Below, in pieces: positions 18,264-47,057 of a stretch of DNA of 49,871 nt. The position numbers and the translations under genes are program-made. The stretch's first letter is position 1, and each line of letters begins with the position of its first letter. The DNA lies in assembly GCA_903901225.1 (NCBI GenBank), contig CAIUQE010000015.1, forward strand, positions 1 to 49,871. The letters run 5' to 3'. The stretch is from Candidatus Omnitrophota bacterium. GTDB taxonomy: Bacteria > Omnitrophota > Gorgyraeia > Zapsychrales > Fredricksoniimonadaceae. The notes beneath the pieces were generated by a model that saw nothing but the letters and a program-made list of their open reading frames with translations, had not been told where the DNA came from and did not search any database.

Positions 18264-18493
18264 TTATCATTCAGCCCTACGATTGACAGAGCAATCGTAG
18301 GCTCCAGTTAACACTTAACATTCAGCCCATCAATCGACGGAGCGTATCTGCGTACTGAATTTGATCAATACACCTTAATGCCTTTGTGTTTGAGCGCCGC
18401 GATCGACGGAGCGATCGCGGGCTTGAATTTATACTGAAATATTCAAGCACCCTTTATCATTCAGCCCATCAATCGACGGAGCGATTGCTGGGC
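18264..18493. repeat. Array of hairpin repeats with constant ACGGAG loop
   Basis: Four imperfect units. Unit 1 (18276-18301) has a perfect 10-bp stem CCTACGATTG around ACAGAG. Unit 2 (from 18319) keeps the left part and the loop but has lost its right arm. Unit 3 (18397-18420) has a perfect 9-bp stem CCGCGATCG around ACGGAG. Unit 4 (18464-18493) pairs GCCCA and AATCG around ACGGAG. Stems differ in sequence yet pair, while the loop and a leader (TTATCATTCAGCCC in units 1 and 4) are kept. No gene is visible in the 18144-18595 stretch. Unit 4 also serves as the second hairpin of the tRNA-Glu tail element. Confidence 0.75.
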
Positions 18494-18600
18494 CATAATT
18501 TTTTCTCTGAATGATCTGGCAAAATCAAAAACCCGCAGATGTTCTCCCATTCGGGTTAGAACATCTGCGGGTTTTTGATTTGATGGTAAAAATTATGGTG
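18493..18600 (-). repeat. tRNA-tail hairpin element of tRNA-Glu
   Basis: Read on the minus strand from the tRNA 3-prime end: arm CCATAATTTTT (18598-18588, including the CCA), a hairpin at 18581-18522 with a perfect 24-bp stem whose tip reads CCC-GAAT-GGG, the return arm AAAAATTATGG (18503-18493), then the GCCC...GGGC hairpin of the adjacent array. The same layout follows tRNA-Cys, tRNA-Val and tRNA-Gln with different stem sequences. No T-run follows the hairpin, so it is not a simple terminator. Confidence 0.75.
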
Positions 18601-18672
18601 ACCCTAACGGGATTTGAACCCGTGTTCCAAGCTTGAAAAGCTTGTGTCCTGACCAGGCTAGACGATAGGGTC
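18596..18672 (-). tRNA. tRNA-Glu (TTC)
   Basis: The acceptor stem GACCCTA pairs with TAGGGTC, followed by discriminator A and an encoded CCA. The anticodon stem CAAGC/GCTTG encloses loop TTTTCAA, giving anticodon TTC. The T arm contains GGGTTCAAATCCC. It is transcribed from the promoter at 18732-18759. The CCA tail is also the first part of the inverted-repeat arm of the downstream hairpin element. Confidence 0.95.
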
Positions 18673-32550: not shown

Positions 32551-33093
32551 ATGGGAAAAAAGCACATTGTCCTCGGGGTGACCGGAAGTATCGCGGCGTA
32601 CAAAGCCGCGGATATTGTTCGCCGCCTGCAGGACGGCGGGTTTGACGTGACCGTGATGATGACGCCCGGCGCGGAAAGGTTTGTCACGCCGCTGACGTTC
32701 GAGGCTTTGTCGCACCGGCCCGTTTACCGCGACATGTTCGCCAGGGAAGGCGCCTGGGATATTGCCCATGTGTCACTGGCGCAGAGCGCGGATCTTTTTT
32801 TGGTAGCGCCGGCGACGGCGGATATCATCGCGAAGATCGCCGGAGGTTTCGCGGATGATTTTGTGGCGTGCATGGCCGCGACAACAAAGGCGCCGGTCGT
32901 GATCGCGCCCGCGATGAATGACGCGATGTTCGCCAACGCGATCCTCCAGGAAAATATAGCGAAATTGAAAAAGCACGGCGTGACGTTCATTGAGCCGAAG
33001 AAGGCAAAGCTTGCCTGCGGAAGTGAAGGGGTTGGCGCGCTGGCGGATGTGGCCGAGATCGTTAAGTCTGTAGAGGCGATTCTGGCGCGGTAG
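32551..33093 (+). CDS. coaC: Phosphopantothenoylcysteine decarboxylase (CoaC half only)
   Basis: 180 residues of the Dfp/CoaBC flavoprotein domain: GVTGSIAAYKAADIVRRL, catalytic-His region DIAHVSLAQSADLFLVAPAT, substrate-binding PAMNDAM and the active-site Cys region KLACGSEGVGALA. The usual C-terminal CoaB synthetase domain is absent; the stop falls inside the tRNA-Cys gene. It decarboxylates 4-phospho-N-pantothenoylcysteine with FMN in CoA synthesis. A separate coaB must be elsewhere or the domain lost. Confidence 0.9.
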   Translation: MGKKHIVLGVTGSIAAYKAADIVRRLQDGGFDVTVMMTPGAERFVTPLTFEALSHRPVYRDMFAREGAWDIAHVSLAQSADLFLVAPATADIIAKIAGGFADDFVACMAATTKAPVVIAPAMNDAMFANAILQENIAKLKKHGVTFIEPKKAKLACGSEGVGALADVAEIVKSVEAILAR

Positions 33094-33158
33094 CCAAGTG
33101 GTAAGGCAGCAGTCTGCAAAACTGCTATGCACCGGTTCAAATCCGGTCCGCGCCTCCA
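33084..33158 (+). tRNA. tRNA-Cys (GCA)
   Basis: The acceptor GGCGCGG pairs with CCGCGCC, followed by discriminator T and an encoded CCA. The anticodon stem GCAGT/ACTGC encloses CTGCAAA, giving anticodon GCA. The first 10 nt overlap the last codons and stop of coaC on the same strand. The 3-prime tail forms the left arm of the hairpin element that follows. Confidence 0.95.
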
Positions 33159-33257
33159 TTTTGTTCCACTGTCAGAAAAACTTTTTACCCGAATGGGTAA
33201 AAGTTTTTCTGTTATGGGAAAACAAAATGGAGCCCTGAAAAGGATTCTTTTCAGGGC
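33154..33257 (+). repeat. tRNA-tail hairpin element of tRNA-Cys
   Basis: Arm CTCCATTTTGTT (33154-33165, containing the CCA) pairs with AACAAAATGGAG (33221-33232). Inside is a hairpin at 33173-33211 with 17 paired bases, one bulge and tip CCC-GAAT-GGG. Immediately after the return arm, GCCCTGAAAAG (33232-33242) and CTTTTCAGGGC (33247-33257) form a second hairpin with a GATT loop. Same layout as at tRNA-Glu, tRNA-Val and tRNA-Gln. Confidence 0.8.
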
Positions 33258-33416
33258 CTGTTAGATACAAGTTATCTTGCAAGGTTCCCTGAGTCGTCCC
33301 CGGATCATGGTGCTTTATATGATCGAGTGATCTGGTCCTGAAAAGGATTCTTTTCAGGGCCTGTTAGATACAAGTTATCTTGCAAGGTTCCCTGAGCCGT
33401 CCCCGGATCATGGTGC
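33234..33416 (+). repeat. 80-bp direct repeat between tRNA-Cys and tRNA-Leu
   Basis: Copies at 33234-33313 and 33337-33416 differ at one base by eye (GAGTCG against GAGCCG) and are separated by 23 bp. Each starts with the second-hairpin sequence CCTGAAAAGGATTCTTTT and contains ACAAGTTATCTTGCAAGG and CGTCCCCGG. It looks like a recent tandem duplication downstream of the tRNA-Cys element. No ORF or promoter is evident. Confidence 0.8.
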
Positions 33417-33432
33417 CAGATAAAAACATCAC

Positions 33433-33515
33433 GGGCGAGTGGTGGAATGGTATACACGAAGGACTTAAAATCCTTTGGCCGAAAGGCCTTGAGGGTTCAA
33501 TTCCCTCCTTGCCCA
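33433..33515 (+). tRNA. tRNA-Leu (TAA)
   Basis: The acceptor GGGCGAG pairs with CTTGCCC, then discriminator A. The anticodon stem AAGGA/TCCTT encloses CTTAAAA, giving TAA. The variable arm GGCCGAAAGGCC marks a class II tRNA. CCA is not encoded (the tail reads CCCATAAAG) and no hairpin element follows, unlike the other four tRNAs here. Confidence 0.95.
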
Positions 33516-33584
33516 TAAAGTTTTTCTTGTGGCTTTTTGAGAGACAGAGTATACTTTTAAAAAATTTGTTTGATGGTTGGACTT

Positions 33585-33823
33585 GGCTCCAATATTTCTC
33601 GGAAAAAACATTAAGGTAGCTGGACCCGTCCCGATTTCCATGGGGCTTGCCTGACGGCATTTTCGCTAGCGCGAAAACCGCCCCGGCAATCGGGACTAGG
33701 GTCCAATATTTCTCGGAAAAAAATTAAGGTAATTGGACCCGCCCTGTTCGCCAGGACGTGAACGTCGGCTCACAGGACTGGGCTCCAGCTTATCTCGGAA
33801 AAACATTAAGGTAGCTGGACCCG
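33585..33823 (+). repeat. Three tandem about 44-bp units ending in the tRNA-Val acceptor strand
   Basis: Units at 33585-33628, 33699-33741 and 33780-33823 share CTCGGAAAAA and ATTAAGGTA and each ends in GGACCCG. In the last unit those bases are the real 5-prime acceptor strand of tRNA-Val. Unit ends pair: GGGTCCAAT/ATTGGACCC in the second and TCCAGCT/AGCTGGA in the third, so pairing is kept with different bases. Spacers are also nested hairpins, e.g. 33629-33695 with TCCCGATT/AATCGGGA, GGGGC/GCCCC and TTTTCGC/GCGAAAA. Confidence 0.75.
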
Positions 33824-33894
33824 TAGCTCAGTTTGGTTAGAGCGCTTCCTTGACATGGAAGAGGTCAGAGGTTCGAGTCCTCTCGGGTCCACCA
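33817..33894 (+). tRNA. tRNA-Val (GAC)
   Basis: The acceptor GGACCCG pairs with CGGGTCC, followed by discriminator A and an encoded CCA. The anticodon stem CTTCC/GGAAG encloses TTGACAT, giving GAC. The T arm has GGTTCGAGTCC. Its 5-prime strand is the end of a 44-bp repeat unit and its 3-prime tail begins a hairpin element, so both ends lie inside inverted repeats. Confidence 0.95.
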
Positions 33895-33995
33895 TTTTTT
33901 TCCACAGCGCAACAAACCTCCTGCCCGCATGGGAGGAGGTTTGTTGCCTTTGGGAGAAAAAATGGTGCCCTGCGCGCCGTCCCCGGCGGGCAGGG
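33890..33995 (+). repeat. tRNA-tail hairpin element of tRNA-Val
   Basis: Arm CACCATTTTTT (33890-33900) pairs with AAAAAATGGTG (33957-33967). The internal hairpin at 33909-33947 has a perfect 13-bp stem and tip CCC-GCAT-GGG. A second hairpin follows at once, CCCTGC (33968-33973) with GCAGGG (33990-33995), around an inner GCC/GGC and a GTCCCC loop. The architecture is shared with the tRNA-Glu, Cys and Gln elements. Confidence 0.8.
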
Positions 33996-34030
33996 TTGGA
34001 TAACATGAGCAGCAGTATAAAAGATCGACT

Positions 34031-40094: not shown

Positions 40095-40294
40095 GATCGC
40101 TGTTATTCCGCGCGCGGCTGACGGCCATGCGCGGGCACGCGTTTCCTGCTGTGTTCGTCAGGGATCTGGCTAATTTGAACCAATATTCAATACCTAGGGA
40201 ACTGTTGTCTTCGGCGCCTTCGGGTTCCGGGCTTGTTCCCACCTGCAAAACAGGTTCAAGGTTGCCCTTTCTCAACGGCACAAGCGGGATCTAA
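40095..40294 (+). ncRNA. 6S-like structured RNA candidate
   Basis: A 200-bp non-coding stretch between pheT and rarA can fold into one long rod. Pairings: CTGACG with CGTCAG in the 5-prime half; GGGAAC with GTTCCC in the middle; a small ACCTG/CAGGT hairpin on the 3-prime side, then a GTTG/CAAC hairpin; and GATC-GCT with AGC-GG-GATC closing the ends. Length, rod shape and a 3-prime-side bubble hairpin fit 6S RNA, and 6S genes are often near rarA. It is followed by a strong hairpin. I cannot run a covariance search. Confidence 0.45.
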
Positions 40295-46864: not shown

Positions 46865-46939
46865 TGTCTCGTGGTGTAATTGGTAGCACAACAGACTCTG
46901 GATCTGTTTGTCTTGGTTCGAGTCCAAGCGAGACAGCCA
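46865..46939 (+). tRNA. tRNA-Gln (CTG)
   Basis: The acceptor TGTCTCG pairs with CGAGACA, followed by discriminator G and an encoded CCA. The anticodon stem ACAGA/TCTGT encloses CTCTGGA, giving anticodon CTG. The T arm has TTGGTTCGAGTCCAA. A tail hairpin element starts within its 3-prime end. Confidence 0.95.
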
Positions 46940-47057
46940 TTTTTCTAATTGCAAAAACATCTCCTGCCCGAATGGGTGGAGATGTTTTTGCTTTTATGGG
47001 AGAAAATGGCTGCCCTCAAAAGCCTGCCTGCCGGCAGGCAGGAATTCTTTTGAGGGC
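46935..47057 (+). repeat. tRNA-tail hairpin element of tRNA-Gln
   Basis: Arm AGCCATTTT (46935-46943) pairs with AAAATGGCT (47003-47011). The internal hairpin at 46951-46991 has a perfect 14-bp stem and tip CCC-GAAT-GGG. The second hairpin pairs GCCCTCAAAAG (47012-47022) with CTTTTGAGGGC (47047-47057), but its loop holds an inserted 20-bp perfect palindrome (47023-47042) made of CCTG/CCGG/CAGG blocks. It is the same architecture as at tRNA-Glu, Cys and Val. Confidence 0.8.

Follow-up and report, generated by a model that had tools for sequence, protein, structure and literature searches.

We describe a repeat family of Omnitrophota in which a cassette of about 100 nt, made of two hairpins (the long H1, followed by H2), stands at the 3' ends of tRNA and tmRNA genes. 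Its structure is conserved and its stems covary, an arm of H1 fits the host tRNA, tandem arrays of units occur, units and linkers are shared between loci, and presence turns over patchily among relatives. On balance we lean towards the view that copies of the cassette arise within genomes and take up places behind tRNA and tmRNA genes as two-way terminators, each with an arm that mirrors its host tRNA.

Results

H1 opens with the final bases of the tRNA and continues through a trailer rich in T, an internal loop with the approximate consensus TTCCACAGC / TTTTGGGAG, and an inner stem to the tip CCC-GNAN-GGG, from which a return arm leads back that complements the trailer and the tRNA end. H2 follows directly; its tips are of two types, GATT/AATT or GAGG-CTCCGT-CCGA. 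The window, meaning the whole 49,871-nt stretch of DNA analysed, holds four copies, behind the genes that ARAGORN places at 33084-33158 (tRNA-Cys), 33817-33894 (tRNA-Val), 46865-46939 (tRNA-Gln) and 18596-18672 (tRNA-Glu, minus strand). These are the places given in a preliminary description, and each copy is a single long hairpin that starts inside the tRNA 3' end, with fold z-scores from -7.7 to -9.2 against dinucleotide shuffles (0/200 as good in each case). The GCCC...GGGC hairpin described right behind the return arm is present at all four, and the tip CCC-GMAT-GGG occurs 17 times in the 2.38-Mb genome, and most real copies lie at tRNA ends.

At tRNA-Cys, H1 occupies 33154..33232 on the plus strand (z = -8.6; 80 bits with the covariance model) and is terminator-like on both strands. 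Its left arm, CTCCA followed by TTTTGTTCC, spans 33154-33167, the first 5 nt being tRNA; the inner terminator-like stem pairs 33173-33190 with 33195-33211 around the tip CCCGAATGGG at 33188-33197, and the return arm lies at 33217-33232. H2 (GCCCTGAAAAG-GATT-CTTTTCAGGGC, 33232..33257, plus strand) comes directly after the return arm, has a second copy near 33335-33361 and, together with CCATTTTGTT, is terminator-like on the minus strand. The copy at tRNA-Val(gac), also on the plus strand, lies between the tRNA and thrS (H1 at 33890..33967, z = -8.0, 76.3 bits; H2 at 33967..33996, z = -4.3). At tRNA-Gln(ctg), H1 runs from 46935 to 47011 on the plus strand (z = -7.7, 73.8 bits), and its H2 (47012..47057, plus strand) is lengthened by an inserted palindrome, CCTGCCTGCCGGCAGGCAGG. 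The minus-strand copy at tRNA-Glu(ttc) has the longest inner stem, 24 bp plus the tip (H1 at 18493..18600, z = -9.2), and an H2 with a GCTCCGTC-type tip at 18464..18493. A contrast case is tRNA-Leu(taa) (33433..33515, plus strand), which has neither CCA nor H1.

Two further features of the window may be recorded here. Upstream of tRNA-Val, at 33583-33830, lie three near-copies of a unit CTCCAATATTTCTCGGAAAAA..ATTAAGGTAGCTGGACCCG, each closing on the 5' end of the tRNA itself (GGACCCG), a stretch that pairs with the beginning of the unit; the leaders of Ser and Arg tRNAs hold similar hairpins that involve the tRNA 5' end. Inverted repeats showed no significant general association with tRNA 5' ends. 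A 6S RNA gene lies at 40140-40294 (Rfam RF00013, 61.6 bits).

A full H1 stands behind 12 of the 44 tRNAs of the window's own genome, namely Cys, Val-gac, Val-cac, Gln-ctg, Glu-ttc, Tyr, Thr-cgt, Ser-gga, Ser-cga, Phe, Lys-ctt and Ala-cgc. Altered forms stand behind another two: Gln-ttg keeps the inner hairpin and has lost the return arm, and at Arg-cct the arms reach 7 nt into the acceptor strand with a different hairpin between them. The proposal that the element is tied to CCA-encoding tRNAs did not survive this survey. Ser-gga, Ser-cga, Thr-cgt and Phe carry it with no encoded CCA, so an encoded CCA is not required, and the association in this genome is weak, with CCA encoded in 9/13 tRNAs with the element and 11/31 without it (Fisher p = 0.05). 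No tRNA-Asp gene is among the 44 detected in this bin; the assembly may miss it. H1 also stands behind a short locus with a hairpin, GTTGGAGAGGTAGACAGCGGCGTGTCA..CTCCCCCCAG, and a promoter-like stretch (L154 on contig C26 of the same genome, L071 in G003, L084 in G004); this locus is conserved in congeners and may be a decayed tRNA or a gene for a small RNA.

The return arm fits the particular tRNA that it follows. Counted inward from the last base of the tRNA as perfect complementarity, the match averages 3.7 nt for the own tRNA against 2.4 nt for swapped tRNAs of the same CCA status (0/5000 permutations). Recently spread copies in genome G010 match little past the discriminator base whereas others match 7-8 nt, which suggests that fitting may continue after arrival.

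A T-tract follows the inner stem in 68 of 87 copies, giving the combination of stable hairpin and T-tract that characterizes an intrinsic terminator, and 76 of the 87 have an A-run in the return arm. Terminator calls are strand-specific, falling on the inner hairpin in the sense direction and on H2 followed by CCATTTT on the opposite strand. Where a tRNA without H1 closes a transcript, it is followed by a plain terminator instead. From these sequence features we infer that H1 and H2 would together form a two-way terminator cassette. With a terminator-like inner hairpin, the return arm may never be made in many transcripts, which weakens the earlier idea that the element sequesters the CCA tail.

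The anchoring extends to relatives, as the preliminary description had anticipated. The covariance model matched H1 in 29 of 55 related Omnitrophota genomes, and of 89 copies fetched (picked by model score from draft metagenome bins, with several arrays at contig ends), 64 start between -5 and +3 nt from an ARAGORN tRNA 3' end, for an expectation of about 8e-5 per hit. The anchored copies span many isotypes, including Asp, Met and Leu. Another four of the 89 are found at the 3' ends of tmRNA genes, and many of the remainder stand behind displaced tRNA-tail fragments resembling T-arm/acceptor ends, the arrangement that would result if the tRNA end had been cut off by another element. Among sampled genomes of the phylum and the class, matches are concentrated in one order and H1 is absent from most genomes of the class; other families of the class have single copies, at tRNA-Ser or tmRNA ends, with H2. 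A GTDB-wide pattern scan gave 58 matches, convincing under the model in Omnitrophota records only; the others look like chance.

Several features of the tails point beyond vertical descent. Tails of different tRNAs are alike in 69/367 pairs within a genome against 377/4340 between genomes (odds ratio 2.4, p = 8e-9), and the similarity extends into the linkers past H2, reaching 86% over 191 nt for Tyr and Val of G010. Tandem arrays of tip-arm-H2-linker units follow several tRNAs, and at two Gln loci of G010 the arms of the second units fit the other Gln tRNA. Presence is patchy, with match counts on both strands of 30, 24, 4, 16 and 3 within one genus. H1 also sits between genes of tRNA operons that are closely packed in relatives: tRNA-Cys and tRNA-Leu are 274 nt apart in the window versus 11 and 72 nt in two congeners, and Lys and Leu are separated by 227 and 285 nt with H1 versus 14 nt without it. 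We take the shared linkers, arrays, patchiness and gap changes as movement or ectopic copying rather than vertical descent alone; for some pairs of loci, gene conversion and not transposition may account for the shared units. Of the marks of a tRNA-targeting mobile element, H1 shows a tRNA 3'-end location and absence in relatives, and the earlier suggestion of an element that spreads precisely, landing at the 3' ends of tRNAs, is supported. A clean pair of empty and filled sites with target duplication was not found, the trailers too differing between filled and empty tails, and direct repeats of the tRNA end after H2 are confined to some Asp and Ser copies (L115, L109, L149).

A second insertion family was seen at tRNA 3' ends (L198, L228 and L112 in congeners; L034 in the own genome). 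Its parts are an inverted copy of the T-arm, a palindromic core rich in G+C (GGAGCCCCGCTGGATGCG...GGCGGGGCGGATGGCCGACCCGAA) and a direct repeat of the tRNA 3' end, which measures about 33 bp at Val-cac of G004. Behind the Gln-ctg gene of G001, this insertion has pushed H1 away from the tRNA. Separately, a short helix-turn-helix ORF (..PIRTAxxIxxKIIIEP..PLYQR..LGMSxxxIA..) reads through a reversed tRNA 3' end in several genera (L076, L126, L137, L156-L165; own copy at G000:C3:4961-5140) and resembles the C-terminal part left over when a tRNA-targeting recombinase is split at its attachment site. As a candidate mover of H1, this ORF fused to reversed tRNA tails was rejected, since it looks like the remnant of another tRNA-targeting element. 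Nor did we retain a phage origin (no phage record matched, and pattern matches on viral contigs fail the model) or a plasmid origin (plasmid matches are limited to tRNA-Val itself).

Covariation is strong, as the preliminary description had supposed. In nine copies brought into structural register, 97.5% of cells are paired, with 53 two-sided and 2 one-sided changes, in an alignment assembled by hand, with loops trimmed and register picked by pairing, and so not independent of structure. Among 83 copies from the own and related genomes, two-sided changes occur at 26 of 27 pairs (527 two-sided versus 41 one-sided cells) and the covariation score is 0.695, against 0.189 when shuffled and at most 0.118 in slid controls, values inflated by the fitting of this alignment to the structure. 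Inner stems of close copies, compared in pairs that are not independent, give 35 two-sided to 2 one-sided changes, more extreme (p = 0.008) than the 162:52 of tRNA stems in the same genus, and double changes cluster weakly (p = 0.08). Stems did not prove faster-evolving than loops (divergence 15.7% versus 19.4%). The rare mismatches in the inner stem are GU rather than AC by 15:2, as they are by 21:3 in other terminators of the same loci, a bias that fits selection as RNA in the sense direction. The outer arm proper has about 4 GU and 3 AC mismatches, too few to separate DNA-level from RNA-level upkeep; a raw count of 5 GU to 11 AC, suggestive of a DNA-level outer arm, comes mostly from internal-loop positions, without which it is about 4 to 3 and supports no conclusion.

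No known family was matched among those tested (REP/RAYT, attC, Rfam); the literature covered was open-access, so that a description in a subscription journal is possible. With Rfam 15, only tRNA, tmRNA and 6S scored above gathering, and nothing below threshold was credible.

Discussion

Our preferred reading is that of a repeat family that spreads by copying and serves its host genes as a terminator. The cassette would move as DNA, via an enzyme or by ectopic copying. Once in place, the inner hairpin with its T-tract would act as the intrinsic terminator of the host gene, and H2 with the T-run of the return arm could halt transcription arriving from the opposite side. The outer arm is the reverse complement of the 3' end and trailer of its host tRNA, and the arms would stay matched by template switching in replication, not by selection on the RNA helix alone. 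Two-sided changes have been described as products of template switching, where a single event copies one arm from its partner (PMC8794818).

A more far-reaching version, which we put forward only tentatively, is that the cassettes represent a new class of miniature mobile element that lands at the 3' ends of stable RNAs and writes an inverted copy of the host tRNA 3' end into its far arm at or after landing, custom-fitting each copy. Repeated landings would then give polar arrays whose distal arms match former or other tRNA tails.

The extreme covariation, the fit of the arm to its own tRNA and the compensatory changes between orthologous loci (for example Thr-cgt, Val-cac and Lys-ctt) are also what one would see if H1 were a conserved pre-tRNA element, its whole duplex selected as RNA and sequestering the tail or directing 3' processing, for instance by RNase III-type cleavage. 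We regard this as unlikely, however, since most tRNAs, and most genomes of the class, have no H1, and since it turns over inside a genus and occurs with or without CCA. The return arm has moreover been lost and the inner hairpin kept at Val-gac of G003, Ala-cgc of G001 and Gln-ttg of the own genome, the outer arm has no GU excess, and the terminator-like inner hairpin would stop the transcript ahead of the arm.

Alternatively, these could be ordinary tRNA terminators, immobile and vertically inherited, whose palindromes have been perfected and extended into the tRNA by template switching during replication. The terminator-like inner hairpin, the predominance of two-sided changes and the plain terminators at tRNAs without H1 agree with this, as does the finding that four-nucleotide loops favour template-switch changes in rRNA (PMC8794818). 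Yet H2, the internal loop and the linkers are common to unrelated tRNA loci of one genome, the asymmetry of the internal loop is conserved through the supposed copying, and both the patchy presence and the insertion within tight tRNA operons speak against immobility, so that we consider this account quite improbable.

Movement of a REP/REPIN-type repeat by a RAYT (Y1) transposase is hardly credible: the palindromic doublets, linkers and tandem arrays do resemble REPINs and BIMEs (PMC3116915, PMC3733652) and RAYT genes are present in these genomes, but the GTAG/CGTC tags of REPs stand at the hairpin feet of at most 6 of 89 copies, copy number is not correlated with the number of Y1/RAYT genes (Spearman -0.12), G014 and G022 have H1 and no Y1 match, and none of the 20 RAYT loci read has an H1. 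IS200-like RAYT (Y1) genes were noted at L312, L313 and L314, with ORF ends that look like REP translations, and REP-like GGGCGGACA..GTCCGCCCCTAC palindromes occur, for example behind the H1 of the own tRNA-Tyr.

Compensatory change in a stem is usually read as proof of selection on RNA. Here nature supplies about 100 copies, some of them no more than 10-15% diverged, whose stems alter on both sides together as the repeat passes from one tRNA gene to another; such a series allows a test of how stems are rewritten, by template switching or selection, and of how a repeat adapts to its target. If our preferred reading of a spreading terminator is right, the cassette would be a mobile terminator that remodels tRNA operons.

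The cassette can be compared with several known systems. Tyrosine-integrase islands and casposons (PMC6614799) likewise prefer tRNA 3' ends and leave the tRNA intact; the cassette, in contrast, has no genes, is about 100 nt long and has a mostly inverted rather than direct target repeat. Integron attC sites share the folded hairpins, the paired but variable stems, the genome-specific consensus and the arrays, whereas the cassette has no gene cassettes, has a tRNA anchor, and shows the core-site pair RYYYAAC/GTTRRRY in 0/89 copies. As REPINs and BIMEs do (PMC3116915, PMC3733652), it consists of short, terminator-like palindromes copied within genomes, downstream of genes and in tandem arrays with linkers; it differs from them in having no GTAG/CGTC tag and no RAYT link, in combining variable stems with fixed tips, and in being anchored at tRNA and tmRNA 3' ends with an arm matched to the host tRNA. 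With the intrinsic (Rho-independent) terminators of tRNA genes it shares a GU-tolerant, G+C hairpin and T-tract behind the tRNA, and it departs from them in its fixed tip CCC-GNAN-GGG, its tRNA-complementary outer arm, its second hairpin with a conserved tip and its spread between loci. We do not file the cassette among the REPs, and describe it as working like an intrinsic terminator with REPIN-like spread.
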